Source: Mariniflexile maritimum
GTDB lineage: Bacteria; Bacteroidota; Bacteroidia; Flavobacteriales; Flavobacteriaceae
Assembly (NCBI RefSeq): GCF_009746565.1
Contig: NZ_WRPN01000006.1
Span: 62,001-126,000, forward strand
Reading direction: 5' to 3'
DNA: 64,000 nucleotides
A program made the position numbers and the translations under genes. This document shows positions 30,073-51,908 of this stretch, piece after piece. Each line of letters begins with the position of its first letter. Position 1 is the stretch's first letter. The notes under the pieces are model-generated. The model did no database searches. It saw only the letters and a list, made by a program, of their open reading frames with translations, and was not told where the DNA came from.

Positions 30073-30116
30073 CAAAAATAGTTTCATCAAATTATCTAAA
30101 ATATGACATTTGTCAT
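30073..30116 (-). promoter_or_regulatory. cco operon promoter: FNR/CRP-type operator plus TAnnTTTG -10
   Basis: A perfect dyad ATGACATTTGTCAT lies at 30103-30116 (centre 30109.5). On the - strand, TATTTTTG (30080 down to 30073) fits the Bacteroidota -10 element. The dyad centre is 29.5 bp from the first base of the -10, which puts it near -41.5 from the likely start, the class II activator position. Upstream of ccoS. Confidence 0.75.
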
Positions 30117-30211
30117 GTTTTTTATTGTTTTCTTATCGTCAGGTTTTTAATAACCAATGGAACCTGCTTAAAAGTACTCCATTTTCAATATAATTCTTGT
30201 GCTGCAACGAA

Positions 30212-32590
30212 TTATATAGGTATTTTTCGGCCAACAATATTGGTTGCAACGGTGGTAAACGCTACAACACTTATAGAGCTTAAGGGCATCAAAATAGCGG
30301 CTACCACAGGCGATAATTGCCCGGTAACAGCAAAATAAAGCCCGATACTATTGTAAATAAAGGACAGTACAAAACTCCATTTGATGATTTTTAGGGCCCA
30401 TTTGGACATGTTGATAAAGTCGCCCAAATGGTTAAATTTCGAGGCATCCAAAATAGCATCGCAGGCAGGTGAAAACACATTCACGTTTTCTGAAATGGCT
30501 ATCCCCACATTACTTTGTGCCAAGGCTCCAGCATCGTTTAGGCCGTCGCCAATCATCAGCACATGGGCACCCTCGCTTTGGTGGTATTTAATGTATTCTA
30601 ATTTATCTTCTGGTTTTTGGTTAAAAAGCAATTTCGTTTTTGTTGGCAAAAGTTTCGTTAAATTTTCTTTTTCACCTTCATTGTCGCCTGAAAGAATAAC
30701 CAAATCGTAGTCTTTTTTTAGAACGTTGAACAAATGCGACAAGCCTTTTCGGTAGGCATTGTAAAAAGTGAACTTGCCTTTGTATTGGTTGTTAGCGCTA
30801 ATGTGAACAGCGGTATTTAAAGTGGCGGCATCTGTGGCATGACCCACAAAAGCGGCCGACCCAACCTTTATGGTATTGTTTTTATAATTGGCCTGTATGC
30901 CTTTGCCCAAATGCTCCTCAAAATCATCTAAAGTTACGATGTCGTGGGCATCCAAAAGGGCGTACAACGACCTACTTAAAGGATGGTTTGATCCGCGTAA
31001 GGTGCTTTTTAATAACGATGTTTCATCTTCTGAAAGCTGTAAACCATCGTAGTTTACGGTCGTTTCCTTGTGGGCCGTTATGGTGCCTGTTTTATCAAAA
31101 ATAAGCGTGTCTATTTTCGCCAACTGCTCAATAACCGAAGCATTTTTAAGATAGAACTTTTTATTGCCTAAAATTCTTAAAACATTTCCAAAGGTAAAAG
31201 GTGCCGCCAACGCCAAAGCACATGGACATGCAATAATTAATACGGAAGTAAACACATTGATGGCTTTACTGGAATCGACTACCAGCCAAAAAGTGGTGGC
31301 AACAACGGCAATGAGCAAAATGCCAATGGTAAAATTCTTGCTTATGGTGTTGGTTATGTTGTTAAATGCCAGCGATTTGTCTTTTTTAAATACGTCGTTG
31401 CTCCAAAGTTGCGTTAGGTAACTTTGCTCAACCGATTTCAGTACGTCCACCTCAATACTGCCTTCCAATTGTTTTCCGCCGGCAAAAAGCTTGTCGCCCG
31501 ATTGTTTTGAAACCGTTCTCGATTCGCCGGTTACAAAGCTGTAATCAATGCGGGCACGTCCTTTTATTAAAATACAATCCACCGGTATCAGTTCCTCGTT
31601 CCTGATTAAAAGTCGGTCGCCTTTTACAATATCGTACACTTGTATGGCTTCTTCCTTGCCTTCGGAAGTTATTTTGGTAATGCCAATGGGGAAATACGAT
31701 TTGTAATCGCGTTCAAACGAAAGAAAAGCATAGGTTTTTTGCTGAAAGAATTTCCCGAGCAACAAAAAGAACAGCAAACCGGTTAAGCTGTCGAAAAAAC
31801 CGGAACCCAAATCGAAAATTATTTCAATGGTGCTTCTTGTAAATAAAACAATGATGCCCAGAGCAATGGGTACATCAATATTCAATAATCTGGAGCGCAG
31901 TCCTTTATAGGCCGAAACAAAATAATCTTGGGCCGAATAAAACACTACGGGAAGTGAAAAGGCAAACATGAGCCACCTGAAAAACGGTTTAAATTGTTCC
32001 AGCCAAAATTCGCCTACCTGAAAGTATTCCGGAAACGATAAAAACATCACGTTGCCAAAGGCAAAACCCGCAACGCCCAATTTGTAGATTAAGGAGCGGT
32101 CTATGTGCTTTTTCCCAACGCTGTAATCGTCCAAACTTATAAAAGGTTCGTAGCCAATGCTGCTTAATAAAACAACTAGGTTTTTAAGCGAAAGCATTTC
32201 GGCATTAAACGTTACGCGAACGGTTTTTTTGCCAAAATTTACAATCGATGCGCTTATAGCTGGGTTTAATTTGTTGAGGTTTTCTAAAATCCAAATGCAC
32301 GAGCTACAATGCACGTGGGGAATGTACAAGGTAACTATTTGTGTGCTGCCATCGTTAAATTCTAAAAGTTGCTCTATAATTTTGGTGTTTTCTAAAAAAT
32401 TGTATTTGCCCTCAATGTCTTTTGGGGTAGCGCCTGGGGCTTGCTGTAAATCGTAATAACAGGTTAAATCGTTTGCAGAAAAAATTTCATAAACTGTTTT
32501 ACAACCATTACAGCAAAATACTTTATCGTCAAAAGTGATTTTAGATGCAGTGGCATCCAATCCACAATGAAAACACGTGTGTTTGTCCAT
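30212..32590 (-). CDS. ccoI: CcoI-type copper-exporting P1B ATPase
   Basis: A 792-residue heavy-metal ATPase. The N-terminus has a cysteine-rich metal-binding segment (CFHCGLD, CCNGCK, residues 5-30) and an HMA-like domain with CSSC near 95. Membrane helices follow; the ion-pathway motif is ACPCALALA near 453, the phosphorylation site DKTGT near 496, and the hinge motif GDGLNDAGAL near 685. CcoI supplies copper to the binuclear centre of the cbb3 oxidase. It has its own operator-containing promoter and is separated from ccoS by 159 bp carrying the second promoter. Confidence 0.95.
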   Translation of the reverse strand: MDKHTCFHCGLDATASKITFDDKVFCCNGCKTVYEIFSANDLTCYYDLQQAPGATPKDIEGKYNFLENTKIIEQLLEFNDGSTQIVTLYIPHVHCSSCIWILENLNKLNPAISASIVNFGKKTVRVTFNAEMLSLKNLVVLLSSIGYEPFISLDDYSVGKKHIDRSLIYKLGVAGFAFGNVMFLSFPEYFQVGEFWLEQFKPFFRWLMFAFSLPVVFYSAQDYFVSAYKGLRSRLLNIDVPIALGIIVLFTRSTIEIIFDLGSGFFDSLTGLLFFLLLGKFFQQKTYAFLSFERDYKSYFPIGITKITSEGKEEAIQVYDIVKGDRLLIRNEELIPVDCILIKGRARIDYSFVTGESRTVSKQSGDKLFAGGKQLEGSIEVDVLKSVEQSYLTQLWSNDVFKKDKSLAFNNITNTISKNFTIGILLIAVVATTFWLVVDSSKAINVFTSVLIIACPCALALAAPFTFGNVLRILGNKKFYLKNASVIEQLAKIDTLIFDKTGTITAHKETTVNYDGLQLSEDETSLLKSTLRGSNHPLSRSLYALLDAHDIVTLDDFEEHLGKGIQANYKNNTIKVGSAAFVGHATDAATLNTAVHISANNQYKGKFTFYNAYRKGLSHLFNVLKKDYDLVILSGDNEGEKENLTKLLPTKTKLLFNQKPEDKLEYIKYHQSEGAHVLMIGDGLNDAGALAQSNVGIAISENVNVFSPACDAILDASKFNHLGDFINMSKWALKIIKWSFVLSFIYNSIGLYFAVTGQLSPVVAAILMPLSSISVVAFTTVATNIVGRKIPI

Positions 32591-32617
32591 TTATTATTCG
32601 CTCAAATATACCTGTCG

Positions 32618-32660
32618 CAAAAATATGAATTGAAGCGCTTTTAAATATGATATTTGTCAT
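32618..32660 (-). promoter_or_regulatory. ccoI promoter: FNR/CRP-type operator plus TAnnTTTG -10
   Basis: The dyad ATGATATTTGTCAT is at 32647-32660 (centre 32653.5). The - strand -10 TATTTTTG runs from 32625 to 32618, 28.5 bp from the dyad centre. Both flanks are nearly identical to the ccoS operator over more than 20 bases. No matching -10 was found toward the + strand, so it serves ccoI, not the kinase gene. Confidence 0.7.
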
Positions 32661-32734
32661 GTTTTTGCTATTTTTACACCGCTTCAAAAATTAGGTATGT
32701 ATTATAGCACATTAGAAATTCAAAATGGTTCTCT

Positions 32735-32778
32735 ACCCCAGAGAGTAGGGTTTACGGGTTGCGTACAAATTCTGGGGT
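32735..32778 (+). promoter_or_regulatory. Inverted repeat upstream of the PAS kinase gene
   Basis: ACCCCAGA at 32735-32742 is repeated inverted as TCTGGGGT at 32771-32778, with 28 bases between. It lies 31 bp before the kinase start codon. It could be a regulator site or a leader-RNA stem; no good TAnnTTTG element was found nearby, so the kinase promoter is not located. Confidence 0.4.
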
Positions 32779-32808
32779 CTTTTATAATTACAAAAACGCT
32801 TTGCTATA

Positions 32809-34053
32809 ATGTTTAAAGACGGTAAGGACATTTTTAATATTTTATTTGAAGCCGTTTCCGAGGGTGTTATTGTGGTGGATAACACGCAAAAAATAGTTGC
32901 CACAAATGCCTCTGCAGAGGCCATGTTTGGTTACAGCAAAGAAGAAATTGTTAACCAGCAACTGGAACTGTTAATTCCCCAAAAGTACCATGCCAAACAC
33001 GGTGCCTATTTTCATGGTTTTGTAAAGCACCAAGAAAGCAGGCAAATGGGTAAAGGGCGCGATTTGTTTGGAGCGCGAAAAGATGGCAGTGCATTTCCGG
33101 TTGAAGTGGGCCTAAACCCATTAAAGATTGACGGAAATTCGTTTGTGATGGCCTTGGTTATTGATATTTCAATTCGGAAACAACACGAGCTCCAATTGCA
33201 GGAACTCAATACCAAACTAGAAAAAAAGGTAAGCGAACGTACTCAAGAACTTAGCAATACCGTTGAAGCCTTAAAAATGGTAAACCTTGAGCGCGATGCC
33301 GAAATAAAAAAGCGCATCGAGGCCCAGAACAAAACAAAAGAGGCCCTGAAAAAGGAAAAGGAACTCAATGAGTTGAAAACCAAATTCTTGTCGTTGGTTT
33401 CCCATGAATTTAAAACACCATTAAGCGGTATTTTAACGTCTGCCATGTTGTTGGGAAAATATAAATTGTCCGAACAACAGGATAGGCGCGATAAGCATAT
33501 CAAAACAATTTCAGAAAAGGTGCACTACCTTAATAATATTTTGAACGACTTTTTATCGATTGAAAAATTAGAAACCGGAAAAATAACCTACAATTTCAGT
33601 ACGTTTAAAATAAGCAAAGTGGTTAATGAGGTAGTTTACAACGCCAACATGCTTTTAAAGGAAGGCCAAACCATCAATTATCCTGAAAATATTGACGACT
33701 ATGCGCTGTTCCAAGATGAAAAAATCGTAGAATTGGCACTATCAAACCTCGTGCACAACGCCATTAAATATTCTTCGGAAAACACCTTGGTTGATATTCA
33801 AATTACGCAAGATGAAACGTATAGCACCTTCATTATAAAGGATAACGGTATTGGTATTCCCGAAAACGACCAAAAAAGCATTTTCAATCGCTATTTTAGG
33901 GCCGAAAATGCATTGCTTACACAAGGCACAGGCATTGGCCTGAACATTGTAAAAAGCCATTTAGAAAACCTAGGAGGTTCTATAAGTTTTATAAGTAAAG
34001 AGCACGTTGGCAGTGAATTCACTTTTATTTTACCAAATAAAGCAAAGCAATGA
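32809..34053 (+). CDS. PAS-domain histidine kinase with FixL-like heme-ligand pattern
   Basis: A 414-residue soluble kinase with no membrane segment. A PAS domain spans about 8-125, a coiled-coil linker about 125-190, a HisKA domain has phospho-accepting H199 in SLVSHEFKTP, and a HATPase domain has LSNLVHNAIKY, DNGIGIP and GTGIGLNIV. Aligned without gaps to rhizobial FixL, H64 (KHGAY) falls on the proximal heme ligand and R84 (GKGRD) on the distal arginine, 20 residues apart as in FixL. Many non-heme PAS domains keep a similar pattern, so oxygen sensing is an inference. Its stop overlaps the start of the response regulator gene (ATGA), making an obvious two-component pair beside the cbb3 operon. 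Confidence 0.88.
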   Translation: MFKDGKDIFNILFEAVSEGVIVVDNTQKIVATNASAEAMFGYSKEEIVNQQLELLIPQKYHAKHGAYFHGFVKHQESRQMGKGRDLFGARKDGSAFPVEVGLNPLKIDGNSFVMALVIDISIRKQHELQLQELNTKLEKKVSERTQELSNTVEALKMVNLERDAEIKKRIEAQNKTKEALKKEKELNELKTKFLSLVSHEFKTPLSGILTSAMLLGKYKLSEQQDRRDKHIKTISEKVHYLNNILNDFLSIEKLETGKITYNFSTFKISKVVNEVVYNANMLLKEGQTINYPENIDDYALFQDEKIVELALSNLVHNAIKYSSENTLVDIQITQDETYSTFIIKDNGIGIPENDQKSIFNRYFRAENALLTQGTGIGLNIVKSHLENLGGSISFISKEHVGSEFTFILPNKAKQ

Positions 34054-35102
34054 AAAAAATATTATTGATAGAAGACGACGTCGTTTTACGGGAAAATACG
34101 GCAGAATTATTAGAGCTTTCCCAATATGATGTTATTACCGCCCCCAATGGTAAAATTGGTTTGGAACTGGCAAAAAACACCTTGCCACATATTATCATTT
34201 GCGACATCATGATGCCAGAACTTGATGGCTATGGCGTTTTGGACGCACTTTCAAAAAATGAAAAAACCAAGCACATACCGTTTGTTTTTTTATCGGCAAA
34301 AACCGAGCGTAAGGACGTTAGAAAGGGAATGGATTTGGGAGCCGACGATTATATAACCAAGCCATTTGAGGAAGATGAACTAATAAGCGCCATAGAAAGC
34401 AGGTTGGCAAAAGCGGCCATTTTGAAAGATAGAAGCAATCATGCACAGGAAAACGCCATTGAAAACGATGATGAGCTTAGAACCCTTAACGACCTAAAAA
34501 ACTTTTTTGATGATAATGGCACCTCAATTAATGTGGCCTCTGGCGATGTTATTTATGAAGAAGGGCAAAATTCAAACAACATTTATTTAATCATTAAAGG
34601 ATTGGTTAAGTGCCATAAATTGGACGAACAGGGCAAAGACCTCACCACCGCTTTGCATAAAGCAGATGATTTGTTTGGCTATACTTCGTTCACCCAAAAC
34701 ATACCTTACCAAGAAACCGCCGCAGCCATACAGGATACCGAATTGGTAGCTATTTCCAAAAACGAACTAAAAAACGTGTTAAACAGCAACCATAAAGTAA
34801 CCTTAGAACTTATTCAATTACTAACCGACGATCTAACGGGCGTAAAGGACCAATTGCTGCAAATGGCTTACAGCTCGGTAAAAAAACGAACCGCAACAAC
34901 CATACTTAAATTTGCTGAAAAATTAAACCGAAAACCCCAAGAATCCATTCGTATTTCAAGAAACGATTTGGCCAGTGTTGCAGGTATCGCATTGGAAAGT
35001 TTGATTAGAACCTTATCAAGTTTTAAGGAAATGGGCCTTATTGAAATTGAAGGTAGGGACATCAAGATACTAGACCTCAATAAATTGCAGCAAATAGAGT
35101 GA
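34050..35102 (+). CDS. Response regulator: receiver domain fused to a CRP/FNR-type DNA-binding protein
   Basis: 350 residues. Residues 1-125 are a receiver with D9/D10, phosphorylation site D52 (IIICDIMMPELDG) and K104 (YITKPF). A cyclic-nucleotide-binding-like beta-roll spans about 150-265 and an HTH_Crp domain about 275-345. The recognition helix reads ALESLIRTL; its Glu and Arg match those that read the TGA half-site in CRP and FNR. The fusion does in one protein what FixJ and FixK do in two. Overlaps the kinase gene by four bases. Probable activator of promoters with TGAY-N4-RTCA dyads in this window. Confidence 0.9.
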   Translation: MKKILLIEDDVVLRENTAELLELSQYDVITAPNGKIGLELAKNTLPHIIICDIMMPELDGYGVLDALSKNEKTKHIPFVFLSAKTERKDVRKGMDLGADDYITKPFEEDELISAIESRLAKAAILKDRSNHAQENAIENDDELRTLNDLKNFFDDNGTSINVASGDVIYEEGQNSNNIYLIIKGLVKCHKLDEQGKDLTTALHKADDLFGYTSFTQNIPYQETAAAIQDTELVAISKNELKNVLNSNHKVTLELIQLLTDDLTGVKDQLLQMAYSSVKKRTATTILKFAEKLNRKPQESIRISRNDLASVAGIALESLIRTLSSFKEMGLIEIEGRDIKILDLNKLQQIE

Positions 35103-35126
35103 TTTTTTGGCCATAATGCCGGCGTT

Positions 35127-35170
35127 ATGATTTTGGTCATATTTCATTAAAATTCATGCCATTACTTTTG
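35127..35170 (+). promoter_or_regulatory. usp promoter: FNR/CRP-type operator plus TAnnTTTG -10
   Basis: The dyad ATGATTTTGGTCAT is at 35127-35140 (centre 35133.5) and TACTTTTG at 35163-35170, exactly 29.5 bp from centre to first -10 base, the same geometry as at ccoS and pflB. It lies 21 bp upstream of the universal stress protein start codon. Confidence 0.7.
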
Positions 35171-35190
35171 TTTTTACTAGACAAATAAGC

Positions 35191-36030
35191 ATGAAGAATA
35201 TTTTAGTACCGACCGATTTCTCTGAAAACGCATGGAATGCCATTGAGTATGCGCTCCAGTTTTTCAGCAAGTCGGCATGCAACTTTTATTTGTTGCACGT
35301 TAATACGGCCTCAACTTCTGAGGACGAAAACTTAACGTACGGCGCAAATCAACAATCGGATTATGAGTTGCTTGTAAAGCCTTCAAAAGTGCGTTTGCAA
35401 GAAACTTTGCATCAAATAAACGAATCGTTTCCCATAAATCCAAAGCACCGTTTTTTTACAATTTCAGATAGTAACTATATGATAGATTCCATTAGAAAAC
35501 AAGTGGAAGAAAAACATATAGACCTTATAGTTATGGGAACTAAAGGGGAATCTTGTTTAAAAAAACTACCTATTGGCAGCAATGCGGGCAACGTTATTAC
35601 CAAAGTAAAATGCACCACAATTGTAGTGCCTGAAAACGCAAAATTTGTAAAACCCAAAGAAATAGCTTTTCCTACCGATTTTTCAATTTTCTGTAAAACC
35701 AAGGTCTTACAGCCCATTTCAGATATTATGGAAACCCACAACGCAGCCGTTAGGGTTTTGCACATTAATAGGTTTGGTGATGCGCTAACCGACGAACAGC
35801 AACGGAACAAAGATTATTTAAACGATTATTTTGAAAACTACCCACACAGTTTTCATTTTTTAACCAATAAGCACATCGAAGATGCTGTGCAAAAATTTGT
35901 TGATAACAGGGAAATAAACATGATTGCCATGTTAGCAAAAAACTTAAATTATTTCCATAAAATTTTATTTCACCCCACGGTAAAGGAAATTAGTTATTAT
36001 AAAGATATTCCCTTTTTAGTATTGCATTAA
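35191..36030 (+). CDS. Tandem universal stress protein (UspA family)
   Basis: A 279-residue protein with two USP domains. The first (1-148) starts MKNILVPTDFSENAWNAIEY and ends with the ATP-binding pattern MGTKGESCLKKLPIGSNAG near 117-135. The second (from about 153, AFPTDFS) is degenerate and lacks the glycine loop. Tandem USPs in anaerobically induced clusters are common in Bacteroidota and other bacteria. It has its own promoter with an FNR-type operator, which places it in the proposed low-oxygen regulon. Confidence 0.9.
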   Translation: MKNILVPTDFSENAWNAIEYALQFFSKSACNFYLLHVNTASTSEDENLTYGANQQSDYELLVKPSKVRLQETLHQINESFPINPKHRFFTISDSNYMIDSIRKQVEEKHIDLIVMGTKGESCLKKLPIGSNAGNVITKVKCTTIVVPENAKFVKPKEIAFPTDFSIFCKTKVLQPISDIMETHNAAVRVLHINRFGDALTDEQQRNKDYLNDYFENYPHSFHFLTNKHIEDAVQKFVDNREINMIAMLAKNLNYFHKILFHPTVKEISYYKDIPFLVLH

Positions 36031-36067
36031 AAAGACATGTTACTGGGGTACTTTGTGTTATTTTGAT

Positions 36068-36075
36068 TAATTTTG
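36068..36075 (+). promoter_or_regulatory. Possible -10 element of the FNR-like gene
   Basis: TAATTTTG fits TAnnTTTG and lies 15-22 bp before the likely start codon. At the place where the operator sits in neighbouring promoters (centre about 36038.5) only a half-site GACATG is present, so FNR-type control here is doubtful. Confidence 0.35.
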
Positions 36076-36089
36076 TGAAACCTCAATTA

Positions 36090-36773
36090 ATGAATATGGG
36101 TAAGTGTGAACAATGTATTATAAAGCAGTTTAACGCGCTTAAATCTTTAAGTAAGGAAGAATTGGTTCGTATTTCCAACTGCAAGACCTCCAGATTTATT
36201 AAAAAAGGCGAGGTTATTTTTGAAGAAGGTGAAGCCATAAACGGCGTATATTGTGTTAAGGACGGTATCTGCAAACTATCAAAATTAAGTGAAAACGGTA
36301 AGGACCAAATAGTTAAAATTGTTGTGAAGGGCCAATTAATTGGTCAGCGCTCTTTAGTTACCGACCAGGTTTCTAACTTGCAAGCTGTTGCTTTAAACGA
36401 TATGGAAGTGTGTTTTTTGCCAAAGCAAGAAATAATTGGCGACCTACAAAGCAACCCTAAATTTTCTTTTGATGTACTAAAGGAAATGGCGCAAGATTTA
36501 AAAGAGGCCGATGATATTATTGTAAACATGGCACAAAAATCGGTAAGGCAACGTTTAGCCGAAACCTTGGTTTATATTCAGGACAACTTTGGGGTAAACC
36601 CCGATAGAACGTTAAGTGTTTTGTTGTCGCGCGAAGATTTTGCAAACATTGTAGGTACTGCAACCGAATCGGCCATTCGGGTATTGTCCCAATTCAAAAA
36701 AGAAGGATTAATTTCCATTATGGGCAAACAAATTAGAATTGAGGATGTTGAAGGCTTGAAACGGGTGGAATAG
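36090..36773 (+). CDS. CRP/FNR-family regulator with FNR-like cysteines
   Basis: Start set at the ATG at 36090 (MNMGKCEQC); 36096 is also possible, while the TTG at 36063 is unlikely. 227 residues: beta-roll about 20-125, long helix to 150, HTH about 165-220 with recognition helix TESAIRVL, whose Glu and Arg are spaced as in the receiver-CRP protein. Cysteines: C6 and C9 match the first two N-terminal cluster ligands of E. coli FNR, C108 (NDMEVCFLP) aligns with FNR C122, but the third N-terminal ligand is Asn; C31, C55 and C61 are extra. It may hold a redox-sensitive iron-sulfur cluster with other ligands. Likely the second regulator of the TGAY-N4-RTCA promoters. Confidence 0.85.
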   Translation: MNMGKCEQCIIKQFNALKSLSKEELVRISNCKTSRFIKKGEVIFEEGEAINGVYCVKDGICKLSKLSENGKDQIVKIVVKGQLIGQRSLVTDQVSNLQAVALNDMEVCFLPKQEIIGDLQSNPKFSFDVLKEMAQDLKEADDIIVNMAQKSVRQRLAETLVYIQDNFGVNPDRTLSVLLSREDFANIVGTATESAIRVLSQFKKEGLISIMGKQIRIEDVEGLKRVE

Positions 36774-36792
36774 TTTCTCTTCTTCTAAAACG

Positions 36793-38436
36793 CTACAATT
36801 TTTTTGAATACACATAAAAATTGGGATCTATTTCAAAACTAGCATTTTTTGATTTTAAAGAAAGCGTTTTCCATTCTGCTTTTGGATAAATCCACCGTTC
36901 CTTTCCGTTAATTATTATTTTTATTGGCATATCAAAAGCATCAACAATTTGGGTCCAGCGGTATCTTAATTCGTTGTTTTTAATGGCATATTCTAAAGTC
37001 GGTATTTTTGTAGTCCTTAAATATTGATTAAAAAATGCGGTTAAATCAATGCCTGTTTCTTTTGATAAAAAATCTTCAATTTGCTTAGTGGTAACCGTTT
37101 GGTGGTAAAACGTTTTGTTCATGCCACGTAAAATTTGCCGCCATTTTTCATCATTTTCAATAAGCTGCCTTAAGGTGTGAAGCATGTTTGAACCTTTATA
37201 ATACATATCGGAAGAACCTTCGCTATTTACATTATAGGCTCCAATAATTGGTTTGTCATTTTCAATGCGTTTGCGGGTTCCTATTACATATTCGGATGAA
37301 GCTTTTTTTCCGTAGTAATAATCCAAAAATAGATTTTCAGAATAAGCCGTAAAGCTTTCATGAATCCACATATCAGCAATATCTTTATTCGTAATGCTAT
37401 TGGCAAACCATTCGTGCCCCGATTCATGTACGATGATAAAATCGAACTTTAAGCCCCAACCTGTTTGTGATAAATCGCTTCCCAAATACCCATTTTTGTA
37501 TTGATTGCCATAGGTTACCGAACTTTGGTGCTCCATGCCCAAATAGGGCACTTCAACCAGTTTATAGCCGTCTTCATAAAACGGATAGGGCCCAAACCAA
37601 TGTTCAAAGGCTTTCATCATTTTTGGTGCATCTTTAAATTGGATTTTGGCTTTTTCAAGATTGTTTTTCAATACATAGTAATCCATATCCAAAGGGCCCT
37701 TTTCACCATCATATATTTCGGAAAAATGAGCATAATCCCCAATATTCACGTTCACGCCGTAATTATTAATGGGGTTGTTTACAAACCAATGGTAAGTGGT
37801 GGTGGTTTCGTGTTTTTCAATGTTTCTAAGTCTGCCGTTTGAAACATCCATCAAACCTTTTGGTACGGTAACGCTTATTAGCATGCTGTCCACCTCCTCG
37901 TACATGTGGTCTTTATTGGGCCACCAAACACTGGCGCCCAGACCTTGGCAGGATGTTGCAACAAAAGGGTTGCCGTTCGCATCTTTTTTCCACGAAAAAC
38001 CGCCATCCCAAGGGGCGTTTACGGCTTCTTTTGGGTTGCCTTCATAATAAACATCTAACTTTTGAATGCTTCCAATGGGCTGATTTTCCTTTAAATTGAT
38101 AAAATGGGCATTGCCTTCGTGTTTTACTTCCAAGGTTTTTCCATTTTGAACCACTTTGGTCATTTTTAAAGGTGGCTGCAAATCAATCTGCATCACGGTA
38201 TTGCTTTTCAATACTTTATAGTGGATGGTGTTTTTTCCTGAAATGTATTTTTTTTCCGGATTCACGGCAATATCCAAATGATAATAGGTTACATCCCACC
38301 AAGCGCGTTCTGGGGTGATGCTACCACGTAAGGTATCTTGTTTTGTGAATTTGTTTTTTTCTGAAAGAATTTGGGCCCCAGAAAAAAATAGTGGCACCAT
38401 AAGAAAGAGCAATAGGATATATGGACGGTATGTCAT
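36793..38436 (-). CDS. M1-family metallopeptidase, exported
   Basis: A 547-residue protein with a signal peptide (MTYRPYILLLFLMVPLFFSG). An N-terminal beta-domain (about 50-245) precedes the catalytic domain with GMEHQSS near 304 (replacing the GAMEN exopeptidase motif), zinc ligands in HESGHEWFANS near 338 and the third ligand Glu in MWIHESFTAY near 360. It lacks the long C-terminal helical domain of full aminopeptidase N, like other short M1 peptidases of Bacteroidota. Likely a periplasmic aminopeptidase. It converges with the FNR-like gene and is not part of an operon. Confidence 0.92.
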   Translation of the reverse strand: MTYRPYILLLFLMVPLFFSGAQILSEKNKFTKQDTLRGSITPERAWWDVTYYHLDIAVNPEKKYISGKNTIHYKVLKSNTVMQIDLQPPLKMTKVVQNGKTLEVKHEGNAHFINLKENQPIGSIQKLDVYYEGNPKEAVNAPWDGGFSWKKDANGNPFVATSCQGLGASVWWPNKDHMYEEVDSMLISVTVPKGLMDVSNGRLRNIEKHETTTTYHWFVNNPINNYGVNVNIGDYAHFSEIYDGEKGPLDMDYYVLKNNLEKAKIQFKDAPKMMKAFEHWFGPYPFYEDGYKLVEVPYLGMEHQSSVTYGNQYKNGYLGSDLSQTGWGLKFDFIIVHESGHEWFANSITNKDIADMWIHESFTAYSENLFLDYYYGKKASSEYVIGTRKRIENDKPIIGAYNVNSEGSSDMYYKGSNMLHTLRQLIENDEKWRQILRGMNKTFYHQTVTTKQIEDFLSKETGIDLTAFFNQYLRTTKIPTLEYAIKNNELRYRWTQIVDAFDMPIKIIINGKERWIYPKAEWKTLSLKSKNASFEIDPNFYVYSKKL

Positions 38437-38468
38437 TAGCTAATTTTTTACTAAAATACTTAAAATTA

Positions 38469-44296: not shown

Positions 44297-44302
44297 GTTA
44301 TT

Positions 44303-44749: not shown

Positions 44750-44768
44750 AGTTTTTGGTAGCTAATTT

Positions 44769-44805
44769 CAAATATATAAAAATATATTATGCATGCATAA
44801 TATAT
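44769..44805 (-). promoter_or_regulatory. marR promoter with a 24-bp palindromic operator
   Basis: Positions 44782-44805 form a perfect 24-bp palindrome, ATATATTAT-GCATGC-ATAATATAT. On the - strand the -10 element TATATTTG (44776 down to 44769) follows after five bases, so the palindrome covers roughly -20 to -43 including the -33 region, as expected for a repressor site. The marR start codon is 20 bp further on. Confidence 0.75.
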
Positions 44806-44852
44806 AACGTTATTTTAACGAAATTAAAATATGATTTGGAGATTAAAAAACT

Positions 44853-46622
44853 TTACGACCTGTATATTTTTTCAATAAGGTTGGCGTATTTTTCTTTGAT
44901 AACCTTACGCTTCAGTTTTAATGTGGGCGTTAGGTGACCTGCGTCGATGCTCCAGATATCTGGGGTGATTTCAAATTTTTTGATTTGTTCCCAATGGCCA
45001 AAATTTTTGTTGGCGGTATCAATTTCCGCTTGGATCCGCTCGTGCAACAATGGGTTGGAAACAATATCTTCGGTTGTGTTCAAATTAATTTTATGGCGTC
45101 TTGCCCATTCCTTAACGAACTGATAATTGACCTGTATTAAAGCCGCTGGCATTTTTTCGCCTTCGCCAATAACCATTATTTGGTCTATAAAGCGCGATTG
45201 TTTAAATTCATTTTCAATAAGTGCGGGCGCTACATATTTTCCGCCCGAGGTTTTAAACATTTCTTTTTTTCGGTCGGTTATCTTTAAAAAACCATCGGCA
45301 TCAAATTCGCCAATATCGCCTGTATGGAAGTAATCGCCTGTCATTACTTCGGCTGTTCTTTCGGGGTCTTTGTAATACCCTAGCATCACGTTGGGGCCTT
45401 TTACCAGTATTTCGCCGTCTTCAGCAATTTTAACATCTACGTTATCAATAATTTTTCCAACGGTACCTATTCTAAAGCCACCATCGCGCATATCGTTTAC
45501 CGATACAACGGGCGATGTTTCGGTAAGCCCATAACCTTCCATAATTGGTAAATTGGCTGCTGCAAAAATGCGGGTTAACCGTTGCTGTAAGGCTGCGCTT
45601 CCAGAAACCATAAGTTCCAGACTGCCGCCTAAGCCAGCTTGCCATTTGCTAAAAATGAGTTTTCGGGCAAGTTTTAATTGCAGTTCGTACCACCACCCGT
45701 TTTGTCCGTAAGGTTCAAATTTAAGGCCTAAATCTACGGCCCAATAAAACAACATTTTTTTGATGCCTTTAAGTTCTGCGCCTTTAGCCATGATGCTGTC
45801 GAAAACCTTTTCATATAACCGCGGAACAGCCGTCATTACATTGGGTTTTACTTCCTTAAGGTTGTCACTCATTTTTTCAATGGATTCGGCAAAATATACT
45901 TCTACGCCACAGTACATATATAGGTATAAAATCATGCGCTCAAACACATGGCAAACCGGCAGGAAACTTAATGCTTTCGATTTCCCGTAATGAAAAGGCA
46001 CGCGTTTTTCACTGTCTAAAATATTGGATATTATATTATTGTGCGAAAGCATCACGCCCTTGGGCTTTCCGGTGGTGCCCGAGGTATAAATTAAGGTTGC
46101 TAGATCCTGCGGTTTTACGGCGTTTTTTCTTAATTCAACTTCCTCTTGGTTGCTGGGGTCTTCACCCAAAATTAAAACAGCAGTCCAATGGTCTTCGCCT
46201 GCAATGGCATCAAACGTATAAACATTTTTAAGAGCCGTATTTTTTTTTATGGTATTTAGTTTTTTTAGCACTTCTATATCAGAGACAAAGCAATATTGTG
46301 ATTCAGAATGGTTCAATATATACTCATAATCATCGGAAGAGATGGTTGGATAAATAGGCACGTTTTGTGCGCCTATTTGCAGGATGCCAATATCCAGCAC
46401 ATTCCATTCGGTTCTATTGGTCGAGGAAATAACGGCAATTTTATCATTCGGCTTAATGCCCAAACGTAGCAAGCCCCGGCTAATGGCATTGGCCTGTGCA
46501 ACAAACTCCTTGGTAGAAATCGCTTTCCATTTCCCATCATATTTGGTGGTAAAAGCCTTTTCTAAATTATAGGTTTCTAATTGATGATATGGAAGGTCAA
46601 AAATCCTAGTAATAGCTGCCAT
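44853..46622 (-). CDS. fadD: Long-chain acyl-CoA synthetase (AMP-forming)
   Basis: A 589-residue ANL-superfamily ligase. The P-loop is LIYTSGTTGKPKGVMLSHNN near 184-203, the adenine motif GYGLTETSP near 355, and the hinge region ITDRKKEMFKTSGGKYV near 450-466. It activates fatty acids to CoA thioesters for the adjacent beta-oxidation genes. It lies upstream of marR in the same direction, 103 bp away, but a separate promoter with the MarR operator lies between them. Confidence 0.93.
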   Translation of the reverse strand: MAAITRIFDLPYHQLETYNLEKAFTTKYDGKWKAISTKEFVAQANAISRGLLRLGIKPNDKIAVISSTNRTEWNVLDIGILQIGAQNVPIYPTISSDDYEYILNHSESQYCFVSDIEVLKKLNTIKKNTALKNVYTFDAIAGEDHWTAVLILGEDPSNQEEVELRKNAVKPQDLATLIYTSGTTGKPKGVMLSHNNIISNILDSEKRVPFHYGKSKALSFLPVCHVFERMILYLYMYCGVEVYFAESIEKMSDNLKEVKPNVMTAVPRLYEKVFDSIMAKGAELKGIKKMLFYWAVDLGLKFEPYGQNGWWYELQLKLARKLIFSKWQAGLGGSLELMVSGSAALQQRLTRIFAAANLPIMEGYGLTETSPVVSVNDMRDGGFRIGTVGKIIDNVDVKIAEDGEILVKGPNVMLGYYKDPERTAEVMTGDYFHTGDIGEFDADGFLKITDRKKEMFKTSGGKYVAPALIENEFKQSRFIDQIMVIGEGEKMPAALIQVNYQFVKEWARRHKINLNTTEDIVSNPLLHERIQAEIDTANKNFGHWEQIKKFEITPDIWSIDAGHLTPTLKLKRKVIKEKYANLIEKIYRS

Positions 46623-46743
46623 TAATTGTTTTTGATACGTTTCTAGTGTTGCAAAGTATGAAATTAAATAAGAATTTCAAATATGGCAACATAAAAGAGG
46701 CTAATTATTATGATAATGCACGCTAAATAATATTTTTGGGAAT

Positions 46744-46786
46744 ATGACATAAGTCATTAAAATAGAAATTAATAGTTTATAACTTG
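46744..46786 (+). promoter_or_regulatory. ppdK promoter: FNR/CRP-type operator with degenerate -10
   Basis: A perfect-arm dyad ATGACATAAGTCAT is at 46744-46757 (centre 46750.5). At 46780, exactly 29.5 bp from the centre, lies TAACTTG, a shortened form of TAnnTTTG. The spacing matches the other operators, which supports this start although the -10 is weak. The ppdK start codon is 60 bp past the dyad. The rest of the 46623-46816 gap shows no further feature. Confidence 0.6.
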
Positions 46787-46816
46787 ATGCGTTAATTATA
46801 TGTAAATCTTAATATT

Positions 46817-49549
46817 ATGGAACTAATACACGATGTAAAAGCTAGGGTATTTAAGTTTGGCAATAAAAAGGCCGATGGCAATAGCTCAATGAAAAATCTT
46901 TTGGGAGGCAAAGGTGCTAATCTGGCCGAAATGTGCGCTATTGGCATACCAGTACCACCGGGTTTTACAATTACTACCGAAGTTTGTACGGAATATAATT
47001 TATTGGGAAAAGAAGCAGTTATAGAACTAATAAAAGAAGAAGTTGAAGACTCCATAGCCAATATTGAATCGTCCATGGGATGCACTTTTGGCGATAAGTA
47101 TAATCCGCTTTTGGTTTCTGTACGCTCTGGAGCACGGGTTTCCATGCCCGGTATGATGGATACCGTTTTAAACTTGGGCATGAACGACGATGTGGTACTG
47201 GGGCTGATAAAAAAAACCAATAACGAGCAGTTTGCATGGGACTCCTACCGGCGTTTTATACAAATGTACGGCGGGGTGGTTTTAGGAATGAAACCGGCCT
47301 CAAAGGATGATGTAGATCCATTTGAGGAAATTATGGATCACCTAAAAGACAAACGCGGTATTAAACTGGATACCCAATTTACCATTCAAGATTTAAAAGA
47401 TTTGGTTTACGATTTTAAAGATGCGGTAAGAAAACAAACGGGCCACAGTTTTCCAACCGACCCATGGGAACAGCTCTGGGGCGCCATTATTGCTGTGTTT
47501 AATAGTTGGAATGGCGATAGGGCCGTTTATTATCGCAACATGCACGGGTATCCAGCCGAATGGGGAACCGCAGTAAATATTCAGGCCATGGTTTATGGCA
47601 ATATGGGAAATAATTCGGGAACAGGCGTTTGTTTTACTCGTGATGCGGGTACGGGCGAAAATGTTTTTAACGGTGAATATCTCATAAATGCACAGGGTGA
47701 AGATGTGGTTGCAGGGGTAAGAACGCCTCAGCAAATTACCAAATTAGGTTCCCAACGTTGGGCAGAATTGGCTAAAATAGATGAAGCCGACCGTTTGGAA
47801 AACTATCCTTCCTTGGAAGAATTGATGCCTTCCATTTTTGAAGAACTAAATGGGTACCAACAAATCCTAGAGAACCATTACCGCGATATGCAAGATATGG
47901 AATTTACCATGCAGGACGGAAAATTATGGGTTTTACAAACCCGAAACGGGAAACGTACGGGAGCAGCCATGGTTAAAATTGCGGTGGACTTATTAAAAGA
48001 AGGCAAGATTAACGAAAAAGAAGCCTTGTTGCGTTTACAGCCCACGAAATTAGACGAATTATTGCACCCTGTTTTCGACCCCAAAGCCTTAAAACGGGCC
48101 CATGTTATTGCACAGGGTTTGCCAGCATCTCCAGGGGCAGCAACTGGGAAAATAGTGTTTTTTGCAGATGAGGCCTCAAAATTTAAAAACAGTATTTTGG
48201 TGCGCATTGAAACCTCTCCTGAAGATTTGGAAGGCATGAATGTGGCCAAAGGCATCTTAACCGCTCGTGGCGGTATGACCTCGCATGCGGCTGTTGTAGC
48301 TCGTGGTATGGGCAAATGTTGTATTTCTGGTGCCGGGGCTTTAAACATAAATTATAAAACCAGAACCTTTACTATCGATGGTCACGAGTACCATGAAGGC
48401 GACTGGATTTCGTTAAATGGTTCAACAGGAAATATTTTTGAAGGTAAAGTTGAAACCGTTGAACCGGAATTGAGTGGCGAATTTGCTGAAATTATGGATT
48501 TGGCCAATAAATACGCCATTATGAAAGTGCGAACCAATGCCGATACACCTAAAGATGCTAAAGTAGCCCGCAATTTTGGTGCTCAAGGAATAGGCTTAAC
48601 CCGTACTGAACACATGTTTTTTGAGGTGGACAGAATCAAGGCCATGCGCGAAATGATTCTAGCCGATACCGTGAAAGGCAGAAAACAGGCCCTAGAAGAT
48701 TTGTTACCTATGCAACGCTCTGATTTTGAAGGTATTTTTGAGGCCATGGATGGACTTCCGGTAACCATTCGTTTGTTGGACCCACCGTTGCACGAGTTTG
48801 TGCCCCATCAATTGGCTACCCAAAAAGAGTTGGCCGATGAAATGCATATTTCACTTCAGGCCGTAAAAAATAAAGTGGCCGAATTGGAAGAGTTCAACCC
48901 CATGCTGGGGCATAGAGGTTGTCGTTTGGGCAATACTTACCCCGAAATTACCGAGACGCAAACCCGCGCCATTATTGAAGCGGCACTTAATTTAAAAGCC
49001 CGAGGCATTATTTGTAACCCGGAAATTATGGTGCCTTTAGTGGGTACGGTTAAAGAATTTGAAATGCAGGAAAACATTATTAGAAGCACTGCAAGTAAAA
49101 TTTTTGAAGAACGTCAAGATAGTATTGAGTACTTAGTTGGTACGATGATAGAAATTCCCAGAGCTGCTTTAATGGCCGATAAAATTGCCGAGAAAGCCGA
49201 TTTCTTTTCCTTTGGAACAAACGACTTAACGCAAATGACCTTTGGCTATTCTCGTGATGATGCCGGTAAATTTTTACCAGTTTATATTGAAAAGGGCATT
49301 TTAAAAGTCGATCCGTTTGAAGTACTGGACCAAGAGGGTGTTGGGCAATTGATTAAAATGGGAACCGAACGTGGTAGAAGCGTAAAACCACAGTTGAAGG
49401 TTGGCATTTGCGGTGAACATGGTGGCGAACCAAGTTCGGTTGAATTTTGTTACAATACCGGTATGGACTATGTAAGTTGCTCACCTTACAGAGTGCCTAT
49501 CGCTCGTTTGGTTTCGGCACAGGCAGCCATTAAAGAAGCAATGCGTTAA
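46817..49549 (+). CDS. ppdK: Pyruvate, phosphate dikinase
   Basis: A 910-residue enzyme interconverting pyruvate, ATP and phosphate with phosphoenolpyruvate, AMP and pyrophosphate. The N-terminal ATP-binding domain starts GGKGANLAEM near residue 30. The phosphohistidine domain has H490 in GGMTSHAAVVARGMGKCCISG. The C-terminal PEP-binding barrel has C865 in VGICGEHGGEPSS as proton donor. A FNR-type operator upstream suggests use at low oxygen, where PPi-dependent glycolytic ATP gain or PEP cycling would be useful. Cytoplasmic; single-gene transcript. Confidence 0.97.
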   Translation: MELIHDVKARVFKFGNKKADGNSSMKNLLGGKGANLAEMCAIGIPVPPGFTITTEVCTEYNLLGKEAVIELIKEEVEDSIANIESSMGCTFGDKYNPLLVSVRSGARVSMPGMMDTVLNLGMNDDVVLGLIKKTNNEQFAWDSYRRFIQMYGGVVLGMKPASKDDVDPFEEIMDHLKDKRGIKLDTQFTIQDLKDLVYDFKDAVRKQTGHSFPTDPWEQLWGAIIAVFNSWNGDRAVYYRNMHGYPAEWGTAVNIQAMVYGNMGNNSGTGVCFTRDAGTGENVFNGEYLINAQGEDVVAGVRTPQQITKLGSQRWAELAKIDEADRLENYPSLEELMPSIFEELNGYQQILENHYRDMQDMEFTMQDGKLWVLQTRNGKRTGAAMVKIAVDLLKEGKINEKEALLRLQPTKLDELLHPVFDPKALKRAHVIAQGLPASPGAATGKIVFFADEASKFKNSILVRIETSPEDLEGMNVAKGILTARGGMTSHAAVVARGMGKCCISGAGALNINYKTRTFTIDGHEYHEGDWISLNGSTGNIFEGKVETVEPELSGEFAEIMDLANKYAIMKVRTNADTPKDAKVARNFGAQGIGLTRTEHMFFEVDRIKAMREMILADTVKGRKQALEDLLPMQRSDFEGIFEAMDGLPVTIRLLDPPLHEFVPHQLATQKELADEMHISLQAVKNKVAELEEFNPMLGHRGCRLGNTYPEITETQTRAIIEAALNLKARGIICNPEIMVPLVGTVKEFEMQENIIRSTASKIFEERQDSIEYLVGTMIEIPRAALMADKIAEKADFFSFGTNDLTQMTFGYSRDDAGKFLPVYIEKGILKVDPFEVLDQEGVGQLIKMGTERGRSVKPQLKVGICGEHGGEPSSVEFCYNTGMDYVSCSPYRVPIARLVSAQAAIKEAMR

Positions 49550-49621
49550 ATGGTTTTAACCTGTTGGATGCCATTATTCAACTTAGTTGCAATTCCGTTT
49601 AGTGTTTCTAGTTTATTTTAG

Positions 49622-49664
49622 TATATTTGGTTTGCTAAATTGGTTATCCAGTTTGGCAAACCAA
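49622..49664 (+). promoter_or_regulatory. Promoter and inverted repeat of the PL6 lyase gene
   Basis: TATATTTG (49622-49629) fits the -10 element. A 9-bp inverted repeat (TTGGTTTGC at 49627-49635, GCAAACCAA at 49656-49664) begins inside the -10 and covers the transcription start and leader. It may be a repressor site or a leader-RNA hairpin. The start codon is 29 bp further on. Confidence 0.5.
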
Positions 49665-49692
49665 TTTTTTGTTTAAGTTAAACCTAAAATGC

Positions 49693-51462
49693 ATGAATGC
49701 CCTTACTACTTATTCAGCGATTTACATGGTGTTTTTTGGATGTTTTCTGCAAGCCCAAACGGTGACCACAAATGCAGAATTAAATACCGCTATTAACAAT
49801 GCTGTGCCGGGAACCACCATTACTTTAGCAACTGGTACGTGGACCAATGTTCAACTTAATTTTGCAAAAAATGGCACTTCTGCAACCCCAATAACTATAA
49901 AGGCTCAAGCCCCAGGCAGTGTATTCATTGAAGGAAAATCGTGGATTAGAATGGGAGGTTCATACATAGTTGTTGAGGGGCTCGTGTTCCAGAACCCTTC
50001 AAATTTGGACACCAGTCGCCCCATTATTGAATTTAAAGGTTCAAACACAGATTGTAATCATTGTAAGATTACAAACATCAAGATTGATACCTATAACGGA
50101 ACGGAATCGCAAAAAACCAGCACCTATAAATGGGTTCTTATCGAAGGTCAATACAATGAAATAAGCTATTGTTCATTCATTGGTAAGTATGGTATAGGCA
50201 GTATTATTAACGATAACAGAAACACTTCCGCGGCAGATTATACTAAAATTCACCATAATTATTTTGCTGGAAGAACGCCCATAAACGCTGTAAACGAAGA
50301 TAACGACCAAGATGCCATTAGGATTGGTAATAGCGCAACCTCTTTATCGGATTCATTTACTGAAGTTTATAATAACTATTTTTATAATTTTAGTGGTGAA
50401 ATTGAGGTGATTTCCAATAAAAGCGGGAGCAATAAATATTATAACAATACTTTTGAAAATTATCAAGGGGCTTTAACGCTCAGGCACGGTAATAATTGTG
50501 AGGTATTTAACAACTTCTTTTTCGCAAATGGTAACCCGTTTAGTGCAGGTGTTCGGGTAATGGGTGAAGGCCACAAGATTTACAATAATTATATTCAAGA
50601 CGTTAGATCTAGGTATGAAAATGGTAGTCTGTCCAACGGAGTTGGAGGTATTAATATTGCAAACGGCAGGACAGATGGTGTTTTAAATGGTTATTTGCCC
50701 GTAAAAAATACAACCATTATAAACAATACGTTTGTAAATTGTGATTATGGAATACGAGTTGGGACTAAATTTGATGCTTCACAAAGTGTTGCGCCCGACA
50801 ATGTGATACTAGGCAACAATATCATATTTCTGGATGCCACAATAGCCAACGAAAGTACAAATAGAGCCATCCAAGTTGTAACACAGCTTACGGGCGCATT
50901 ATCAAAATACGAAAATAATATGAAGCAAGCGGGAATTTGGGATTCTTTTGGGACTGTTACAGCCACCGGAAACGTAAACGTTCCTTCTGGATTGTTGGTC
51001 CCTGCCGCCTATTTTTATAGAATAAGCAGCGGTAGTGCCGCAATAGATTACGGATTGGGAAACTATACCTTTTTGGATAAAGATATTCTAGGAGGTATAA
51101 GACCTGCTGCTTTATTTGATGCTGGAGCTGAAGAGTTTGGCTCTGGAGGCACTTTTTTACCATATAAAACCACAGATGTTGGTGTTACTGTTGGTTTTGG
51201 GGGAAGTCCGGCACTAAGTGTATCCCAAAAAACTCCAGACGTTCAAAACCTGAAAATTTACCCAAACCCAATAATTGGGGATTATTTGAATGTTTTATCA
51301 AAGGATAAAGCCATAGGAAGAATTACTATTGTAGATATTACAGGCAAAGTGGTTCTAGAAAAAAGTATTCAAAATGTGTCGGGACATATCAATGTAAGCA
51401 ATCTGTCCAAAGGAATTTATGTGGTTAAGGTTCAGGGTATTTCTAAACTTTTTGTAAAGTAA
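49693..51462 (+). CDS. PL6 polysaccharide lyase (alginate or chondroitin lyase type) with T9SS sorting domain
   Basis: The ATG at 49693 gives a signal peptide (MNALTTYSAIYMVFFGCFLQ) and 589 residues. A parallel beta-helix domain spans about 25-420. K243 (EVISNKSGS) and R264 (LTLRHGNNC) are 21 residues apart, exactly as the catalytic Lys and Arg of chondroitinase B and PL6 alginate lyases. The C-terminal 75 residues are a type A T9SS sorting domain (LKIYPNPIIG to GIYVVKVQG), so the enzyme is secreted or surface-bound. Alginate is the more likely substrate in a marine flavobacterium. It stands alone, with no SusCD or other alginate gene nearby. Confidence 0.88.
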   Translation: MNALTTYSAIYMVFFGCFLQAQTVTTNAELNTAINNAVPGTTITLATGTWTNVQLNFAKNGTSATPITIKAQAPGSVFIEGKSWIRMGGSYIVVEGLVFQNPSNLDTSRPIIEFKGSNTDCNHCKITNIKIDTYNGTESQKTSTYKWVLIEGQYNEISYCSFIGKYGIGSIINDNRNTSAADYTKIHHNYFAGRTPINAVNEDNDQDAIRIGNSATSLSDSFTEVYNNYFYNFSGEIEVISNKSGSNKYYNNTFENYQGALTLRHGNNCEVFNNFFFANGNPFSAGVRVMGEGHKIYNNYIQDVRSRYENGSLSNGVGGINIANGRTDGVLNGYLPVKNTTIINNTFVNCDYGIRVGTKFDASQSVAPDNVILGNNIIFLDATIANESTNRAIQVVTQLTGALSKYENNMKQAGIWDSFGTVTATGNVNVPSGLLVPAAYFYRISSGSAAIDYGLGNYTFLDKDILGGIRPAALFDAGAEEFGSGGTFLPYKTTDVGVTVGFGGSPALSVSQKTPDVQNLKIYPNPIIGDYLNVLSKDKAIGRITIVDITGKVVLEKSIQNVSGHINVSNLSKGIYVVKVQGISKLFVK

Positions 51463-51864
51463 GGTTCGGTACAGAACAAAAATATAAGCATGTTTTGTAA
51501 GTATCATATTGCATATATTTTTATGTTTTTTGAGGTTTTAATTTTTGTTGCCTTGCTATCATGTAATCAATCTTAATTGATTTTTTCCAAGTGCTTAAAA
51601 AACATTTTCAGGGGGTGTTTTTTCATGTCCAAACCTTAAACAGCTCAATTCCACTCGTTATTCAAAATCTAAATACTGCTGATAAATGTCTTTTTAGGGC
51701 TTTTTTTATTGTAAATATTAAACAGGTTGTTGAGGCATGGTGTGCTATATTAACCCGAAAATGCATCATATTATCCATGTCAAAATTTATTTATTTTTTT
51801 GTTTTTCATTAAGGCCATATTTCAAACGTTTTCGTAAGATAATTAGCGTTTTTAGGGGTTTTTT
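51463..51864. other. Intergenic region between the PL6 lyase and pflB genes, no gene seen
   Basis: About 400 bp of AT-rich sequence. A 73-codon frame at 51591-51812 starts with TTG, has no recognisable motif or homology that I know, and is not supported as a gene. Two weak hairpins are present: AATCAA/TTGATT at 51565-51582 and AAAAAACA/TGTTTTTT at 51597-51623. The pflB promoter starts at the right edge. Confidence 0.5.
51565..51586 (+). terminator. Weak candidate terminator of the PL6 lyase gene
   Basis: A 6-bp stem (AATCAA / TTGATT, 6-base loop) runs into TTTT. It lies about 100 bp past the lyase stop. The stem is short and has no G-C rich part, so this is a weak call. Confidence 0.3.
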
Positions 51865-51908
51865 ATGATATATATCAGTTTTCTGAGTTAATAAAGGCAA
51901 TACATTTG
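51865..51908 (+). promoter_or_regulatory. pflB promoter: FNR/CRP-type operator plus TAnnTTTG -10
   Basis: The perfect dyad TGATATATATCA is at 51866-51877 (centre 51871.5); TACATTTG at 51901-51908 fits the -10. Centre to first -10 base is 29.5 bp, as at ccoS and usp. The expected start of transcription is near 51915, and the leader is about 36 bases. Confidence 0.75.

Follow-up and report, generated by a model that had tools for sequence, protein, structure and literature searches.

A fixed-distance FNR-type operator marks a probable low-oxygen regulon, with two candidate regulators, in Mariniflexile maritimum and its family

How do several separate promoters in one flavobacterial locus come to carry the same palindrome at the same distance from the promoter box, and which protein would read it? 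The question is raised by a 64,000-nucleotide stretch of the Mariniflexile maritimum genome (here referred to as the window; G000:C35:62001-126000 of a 3.66-Mb genome), in which a CRP/FNR-type dyad precedes ccoS, ccoI, usp, ppdK and pflB. Two regulators of the CRP/FNR family are encoded among these genes, an FNR-like protein and a response regulator in which a receiver is fused to a CRP/FNR body (the fusion). A first-pass annotation had proposed a local low-oxygen regulon. Our analysis indicates that the dyad and its spacing recur throughout the genome and the family, and we consider it likely, from sequence comparisons, that they belong to a genome-wide low-oxygen regulon with one operator at -41.5, readable by either the FNR-like protein or the fusion.

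Five promoters share a dyad at a fixed distance from the -7 box

A scan of the window located five dyads of the form TGAYNNNNRTCA at 30104-30115, 32648-32659, 35128-35139, 46745-46756 and 51866-51877. Counted from the dyad centre, the -7 box begins 29.5 bases away at ccoS, usp, pflB and ppdK and 28.5 bases away at ccoI, corresponding to gaps (bases between dyad and box) of 23 and 22, respectively. The boxes at ccoS, ccoI, usp and pflB matched TAnnTTTG exactly, and that of ppdK was degenerate (TAACTTGA). The window sequence thus bore out all of the dyads and spacings reported in the first-pass annotation. The elements and genes concerned are as follows.

27666..29849, reverse strand: ccoNO, fused cbb3 oxidase subunits I/II (NF011053 and TIGR00780 over cut-off)
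29879..30052, reverse strand: 58-residue open reading frame (ORF) that we take to be ccoS, for cbb3 maturation (named from its translation rather than by a family model)
30073..30080, reverse strand: -7 box TATTTTTG of the ccoS promoter, gap 23 (genome pattern match C35:92073-92115)
30104..30115, no strand: FNR-type dyad TGACATTTGTCA, upstream of ccoS-ccoNO (window dyad scan)
30212..32590, reverse strand: ccoI-type heavy-metal (copper) P-type ATPase (TIGR01494 over cut-off)
32618..32625, reverse strand: -7 box TATTTTTG of the ccoI promoter, gap 22 (genome pattern match)
32648..32659, no strand: dyad TGATATTTGTCA in the ccoI-kinase intergenic region (window dyad scan)
32809..34053, forward strand: PAS histidine kinase with FixL-like PAS, 414 residues (PAS, HisKA, HATPase_c)
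34050..35102, forward strand: response regulator REC-cNMP_binding-HTH_Crp, the fusion (domain search; start overlaps the kinase stop by 4 bases)
35128..35139, no strand: dyad TGATTTTGGTCA upstream of usp (window dyad scan)
35163..35170, forward strand: -7 box TACTTTTG of the usp promoter, gap 23 (genome pattern match)
35191..36030, forward strand: universal stress protein, usp (PF00582)
36063..36773, forward strand: FNR-like regulator carrying an N-terminal CxxC motif (probable ATG at 36096)
46745..46756, no strand: dyad TGACATAAGTCA upstream of ppdK (window dyad scan)
46780..46787, forward strand: degenerate -7 box TAACTTGA of ppdK, gap 23 (sequence reading)
46817..49549, forward strand: ppdK (TIGR01828 over cut-off)
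51866..51877, no strand: dyad TGATATATATCA upstream of pflB (window dyad scan)
51901..51908, forward strand: -7 box TACATTTG of the pflB promoter, gap 23 (genome pattern match)
51948..54176, forward strand: pflB (TIGR01255 over cut-off)
54332..55006, forward strand: pflA (TIGR02493 over cut-off)
55021..55800, forward strand: formate/nitrite transporter, focA-like (TIGR00790 over cut-off; the FocA model TIGR04060 below cut-off)

For the P-type ATPase at 30212..32590, the copper-specific models stayed below their cut-offs, and the name ccoI comes from its position.

The whole genome was searched for the dyad followed by a TAnnTTTG box, allowing gaps of 8-38, with a narrower count at gaps 22-24; the control was the pattern read backwards in the same genomes. 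There were 26 matches in the M. maritimum genome, 16 at gap 23, 2 at 22, 1 at 21 and 7 elsewhere. Gaps 22-24 held 18 of the 26 (binomial p ~4e-13 if all 31 gaps are equally likely), compared with 2 for the reversed pattern. In a set of 100 Flavobacteriaceae genomes that includes this one, 892 sites were found at gaps 22-24 versus 65 for the reversed pattern, and 91 genomes had at least one site. The per-genome counts are complete; the gap-by-gap list covers part of the genomes, and among its 150 listed matches 66 were at gap 23, 11 at 24 and 8 at 22, with no more than 7 at any other gap. When 118 genomes were drawn from the phylum, the 11 members of the same family had 5-23 sites and the two others from the order 10 and 17, while 16 other members of the class had 0-16 and the remainder 0-4.

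Palindromes and A+T-rich -7 boxes might coincide by chance in a low-GC genome, and within the window the dyads alone were not significantly enriched (6 versus 2.96 expected, a number reached in 8 of 100 shuffles). The sixth of these, at 13395, falls within an ORF of 1193 residues and was set aside as a chance occurrence. A random origin is contradicted by the spacing test, and also by the gap-23 peak in both the genome and the family, the excess over the reversed pattern and the conservation of orthologous promoters described below, and we regard composition as an extremely improbable explanation. The first-pass annotation had judged the spacing agreement hard to obtain by chance and had named an equal frequency of the combination at random places as grounds for abandoning the idea; the genome scan addressed this point and the idea survived. 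Its word "local" was too narrow, since the regulon is genome-wide and family-wide.

Predicted promoter geometry and operator sequence

In a start-site map of Flavobacterium psychrophilum made by 5'-end RNA sequencing, TAnnTTTG occupies -12 to -5 (PMC9723704). With start positions borrowed from that map, a gap of 23 would centre the dyad on -41.5, where class II activators bind, in agreement with the class II distance proposed for the shared FNR-type dyad in the first-pass annotation. A logo of 69 sites from five genomes, chosen for having a dyad and box 23 bases apart, read ATGAY-N4-RTCAT, with an A before and a T after the core, followed by a T-rich stretch; no -33 element stood out among these sites. 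The possibility that the ccoI-kinase intergenic dyad serves the kinase gene as well, from class II distance, was rejected, as the kinase side in the window has no -7 box at gap 23.

The sites precede genes of respiration, nitrous oxide reduction and fermentation

Elsewhere in the M. maritimum genome, sites with gaps of 21-23 stand before a cytochrome c gene and nosZ operon (TIGR04246 over cut-off), hemN (TIGR00538), pta (TIGR00651), pckA (TIGR00224), a 2-oxoacid oxidoreductase gene (TIGR03710) and a methylmalonyl-CoA epimerase gene (TIGR03081) followed by a carboxyl transferase gene. Genes for a thioredoxin-fold protein, a DUF2490 protein and a TonB-like protein have sites in the same gap range. 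Another site precedes nirK (TIGR02376 over cut-off), after which come genes that by eye resemble norCB, the second without a hit at the threshold used. With cbb3 and pflB among the site-bearing genes, the inclusion of high-affinity respiration and fermentation suggested in the first-pass annotation holds. In F. psychrophilum, oxygen limitation is reported to induce the cbb3 oxidase strongly and to induce haem biosynthesis enzymes as well (PMC9723704).

Two proteins without a Pfam hit, or an NCBIfam hit at 1e-30, are also encoded behind gap-23 sites. One has 609 residues (L108:1998-3827, G000:C12) and is 78% identical over 477 residues to a protein behind a site in a genome that has the FNR-like regulator only (G017); the other has 1159 residues (L111:770-4249, G000:C23). 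The site at C4:11839, before a 227-residue protein without a Pfam family, may be a chance match.

Conservation was assessed at orthologous promoters. Among 80 named loci with the receiver-CRP gene, a dyad lay within 420 bases downstream of that gene in 76. A dyad with an exact TAnnTTTG box followed in 71 of the 80, all at gap 23 and none at any other gap from 8 to 38; usp was absent from this position in 4 of the 80. Between ccoI and the FNR-like gene, a dyad was present in 18 of 20 loci and missing from the other two, and it was present between ccoI and the kinase gene in all 11 named loci showing both genes. Gaps of 19-27 were scanned for 27 ccoI dyads (the 18 from FNR-type loci and 9 of the 11 ccoI-kinase loci). 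The best -7 box had at least 5 of the 6 fixed letters in every case, at gap 23 in 26 and at gap 22 in one; 24 of the 27 boxes were imperfect, all missing just the first T. In 17 of 19 ccoS/ccoN promoters from genomes with the fusion only, a dyad and box at gap 23 were found (9 exact, 8 with one mismatch). The ppdK gene is rare, being matched in 4 of 40 relatives (M. maritimum itself, two of five genomes of the same genus and one of the order). Both same-genus genomes that have the gene also have the dyad, with partial boxes TAACTTTA and TAAATTCA at gap 23, and no dyad was found upstream of ppdK in the sole matching order genome outside the family (L202).

Two candidate regulators with matching recognition residues

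The fusion contains REC, cNMP_binding and HTH_Crp_2 domains. Its closest relatives among named records come from Confluentibacter, Marixanthotalea and Mariniflexile (81-84% identity). Across 81 of 81 aligned rows, the acidic pair D9 and D10, the phospho-acceptor Asp52, Ser82 and Lys104 of the receiver are identical, and Glu and Ile-Arg occupy the CRP/FNR contact positions. FixJ is a receiver with a LuxR-type helix-turn-helix output; the output here is cNMP_binding plus HTH_Crp_2. Against the FixK model (NCBIfam NF050806) the fusion scored 71.3 bits, below the cut-off of 300, and it has a receiver. The kinase and fusion genes are probably co-transcribed, as their overlap suggests.

The kinase has one PAS region and no membrane-like segment (top 19-residue hydropathy of 1.18, versus 2.50 for ccoI). 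The best Protein Data Bank matches of its PAS were the FixL haem PAS (E values of 9.5e-17 and 9.4e-15) and DosP, down to 2.4e-11; the next match was at 6e-6. His64 and Arg84 align with the proximal haem-ligand His and the distal Arg of the FixL chains; of 80 rows (two gapped), 77 retain the His and 71 the Arg. The kinase thus has the residue pair of the FixL PAS, and its score against the full FixL model (NCBIfam NF041777) was 97.1 bits, below the cut-off of 850. At many more distant loci the kinases are longer and ~50% alike.

The FNR-like protein scored 97.2 bits against FNR (NCBIfam NF008365), below the cut-off of 228. FNR has four cluster cysteines, three in a C-x2-C-x5-C arrangement and one internal. 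All 21 aligned rows (window 36063-36773 and L179-L198) have Cys15, Cys18, Cys64 and Cys117; C15, C18 and C117 correspond to cysteines in Aliivibrio FNR, so that three of the FNR set are matched, while the third FNR cysteine is missing and C64 is invariant instead. We propose Cys64 as a candidate fourth cluster ligand, and a new ligand arrangement is possible. Glu and Ile-Arg are at the CRP/FNR contact positions in all 21 rows. Foldseek placed a structure model (mean pLDDT 77) in the CRP/FNR fold, with query-normalised TM scores of 0.82 to 2gau and 0.75 to holo-FNR (5e44); the model confirms the fold only.

Three proteins in the genome exceed the HTH_Crp_2 cut-off, and only the fusion and the FNR-like protein have Glu and Arg at the contacts. 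The third (L205, C1:425170) was rejected as a reader of the site, having Val at the Glu position. The first-pass annotation was therefore right that there are two CRP/FNR-family regulators with matching recognition residues; it had passed over the fact that one is a response regulator whose gene overlaps that of a kinase with a FixL-like PAS.

All 20 loci fetched from the 57 genomes having the FNR-like gene show it next to ccoI. The kinase, fusion and usp genes stand as a block between the two in the window and in 9 of the 80 named loci. Distances of 5-47 bases between a dyad and the match start of the FNR-like gene were measured in 11 FNR-type loci. The window has TAATTTTG at 36068-36075, just before the FNR-like start, and no strict dyad near it, so this copy may have lost autoregulation.

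These properties bear on the signal. The dyad could instead be a site responsive to nitric oxide or nitrite (DNR/NnrR-like) or to cyclic nucleotides, given that nirK and nosZ belong to the regulon and that both proteins have a cNMP-binding domain. We consider this quite unlikely, because cbb3, hemN, pflB, pckA and pta are also in the regulon, the kinase PAS matches the oxygen sensors FixL and DosP best among solved structures, the conserved cysteines of the FNR-like protein align with FNR, and a published flavobacterial response to oxygen limitation comprises cbb3 and haem synthesis (PMC9723704).

Each regulator alone is associated with the regulon

We compared site densities across the 100 genomes, scoring the fusion as present at E < 1e-70 over its full length and the FNR-like protein at E < 1e-60. 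The 22 genomes with both regulators had 335 sites (4.01/Mb), the 20 with the fusion only 220 (3.34/Mb), the 35 with the FNR-like protein only 304 (2.44/Mb) and the 23 with neither 33 (0.63/Mb); the reversed control gave 0.16-0.24/Mb across groups. The 20 fusion-only genomes have no FNR-like orthologue at E 1e-60, and in 18 of them completeness is 90% or more and contamination 5% or less. Each regulator alone is thus associated with the regulon in genomes lacking the other.

A stronger argument than the densities comes from the genes behind the sites, compared for 60 of 68 sites in four genomes (three of the 60 had no ORF found behind them). Sites at cco, hemN, the nos cytochrome c gene, pflB and the thioredoxin-fold gene occur both in a fusion-only genome (G069) and in one or other of two FNR-only genomes (G005 or G017). 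Logos of fusion-only and FNR-only sites were not clearly separable (25 and 28 sites). The fusion-only genome G056 has mainly other genes behind its sites; the box of its cco promoter has one mismatch. By eye, several of its sites (even L120-L148) precede Hsp20-like, DnaJ-like, PfkB-like, PEP-synthase-like and Usp genes, some of them of stress type, a set reminiscent of the mycobacterial dormancy regulon.

One could suppose that the FNR-like protein alone drives the respiratory and fermentative genes and that the fusion controls just the adjacent usp and stress genes: the FNR-like gene adjoins ccoI wherever fetched, the fusion neighbourhood is tied to the usp site and many sites of G056 precede genes that by eye are of stress type. 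This division of labour is unlikely, however, as the 17 fusion-only cco promoters retain dyad and spacing, hemN, pflB and the nos cytochrome c gene have sites in G069, and the fusion-only genomes lack an FNR-like orthologue at the threshold used while being mostly near complete.

Several points weigh against an operator shared by two oxygen regulators. No match to the cbb3 catalytic subunit was found in 19 of the 23 genomes with neither regulator, and two of the four matches are at 32-33% identity. Most of these genomes thus seem to lack the whole module, and co-occurrence cannot separate a required regulator from an absent module. One of them, G048 (82% complete, 6% contaminated), contributes 11 of the 33 sites with no regulator match, and diverged FNR-like matches in G020 and G043 further weaken co-occurrence as proof. 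Two of the 19 fusion-only cco promoters are without a dyad, one of them with just 679 bases upstream. The third FNR cysteine is absent from the FNR-like protein, which has N24 there, and a His and an Arg in a FixL-like PAS are not proof of haem. The per-genome site counts behind the densities were transcribed by hand, and counts across genomes and loci are not independent because the genomes are related.

Proposed mechanism

We infer that oxygen is the signal, that haem and an Fe-S cluster are bound, that phosphotransfer occurs and that each regulator binds DNA and activates. In the low-oxygen regulon that we favour, a dimeric CRP/FNR-type activator would bind ATGAY-N4-RTCAT centred at -41.5 and recruit RNA polymerase at promoters with a TAnnTTTG -7 box and no evident -33 element. 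When oxygen falls, the FixL-like haem PAS would free the kinase activity, the kinase would phosphorylate the receiver of the fusion, and the fused CRP/FNR body would then bind the dyad and activate transcription. The FNR-like protein would act likewise, with an Fe-S cluster on its cysteines as the direct oxygen sensor, perhaps at lower oxygen. The FixL-FixJ-FixK logic would thereby be shortened to two proteins, the FixJ receiver and FixK body being merged, and this two-protein switch would converge with FNR, or replace it, on one operator, leaving the operators unchanged. We lean, with some reserve, towards the broader proposal that a FixL-like haem kinase directly phosphorylating an FNR-type activator has either supplanted an Fe-S FNR or come to work alongside it throughout the family, with hundreds of operators and the 23-base gap kept and the FNR ligand set rearranged.

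Neighbouring genes

An ORF at 49669-51462 (597 residues), between ppdK and pflB, resembles by eye a polysaccharide lyase destined for secretion, with a sorting tail at its C terminus. The gene for the 609-residue protein is followed by a nadA-like gene, and its product is a conserved unknown of the low-oxygen regulon. An Rrf2-type gene (L107:1544-1975) diverges from the nos operon beside its dyad (site 2031); in G017, an Rrf2 gene has its own site, and this and the nos cytochrome site have one dyad in common (L155, L157).

Comparison with known systems

In the titles and abstract openings searched (most subscription papers and supplements were beyond reach), we found no published description of the operator, of the fusion or of an FNR regulon in flavobacteria, and no account of the control of low-oxygen respiration, fermentation or nitrous oxide reduction in this group. 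The main text of PMC9723704 has no hit for "crp" or "fnr". The present finding offers a concrete operator, a promoter geometry, a regulon and two candidate sensors. It suggests a distance rule for activated TAnnTTTG-type promoters and provides a natural experiment in which one regulator takes the place of another while the operator stays the same.

Similar to FNR of Escherichia coli and Aliivibrio, the FNR-like protein has the CRP/FNR fold, aligned CxxC and VC cysteines, a TGA-N6-TCA core and, presumably, class II distance. It differs in the missing third cysteine, in the invariant C64 elsewhere and in an Ile at the position of FNR Ser212. HcpR2 and MalR of Bacteroidetes are likewise CRP/FNR-family proteins of the same phylum; HcpR2 differs in its motif, GTAACnnnnGTTAC, and has no FNR-type cysteine motif (PMC1274295), and MalR homologues are predicted to sense carbon (PMC8510549).

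The closest parallel in logic is rhizobial. The hFixL-FxkR-FixK and FnrN arms of Rhizobium leguminosarum are reported as two sensors of different sensitivity acting on one operator (PMC7888657), and in rhizobial FixL-FixJ-FixK/FnrN systems, as proposed here, one arm with a PAS kinase and another with an Fe-S FNR, their sensors differing in kind, meet on an FNR-type operator controlling cbb3 (PMC7888657, PMC4999443). Unlike in those systems, receiver and CRP/FNR body form a single protein here, which leaves no separate fixK gene and no intermediate transcription step; the promoters are of the TAnnTTTG type; A predominates at the outer position of the half-site (ATGAY), where the rhizobial anaerobox has T (TTGAT); and in many genera one arm occurs without the other. 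Judged from the sequences compared, the arrangement thus differs from the known logic, apparently as something new, in its receiver-CRP/FNR fusion, promoter type, operator outer base and exchange of regulators under fixed operators.

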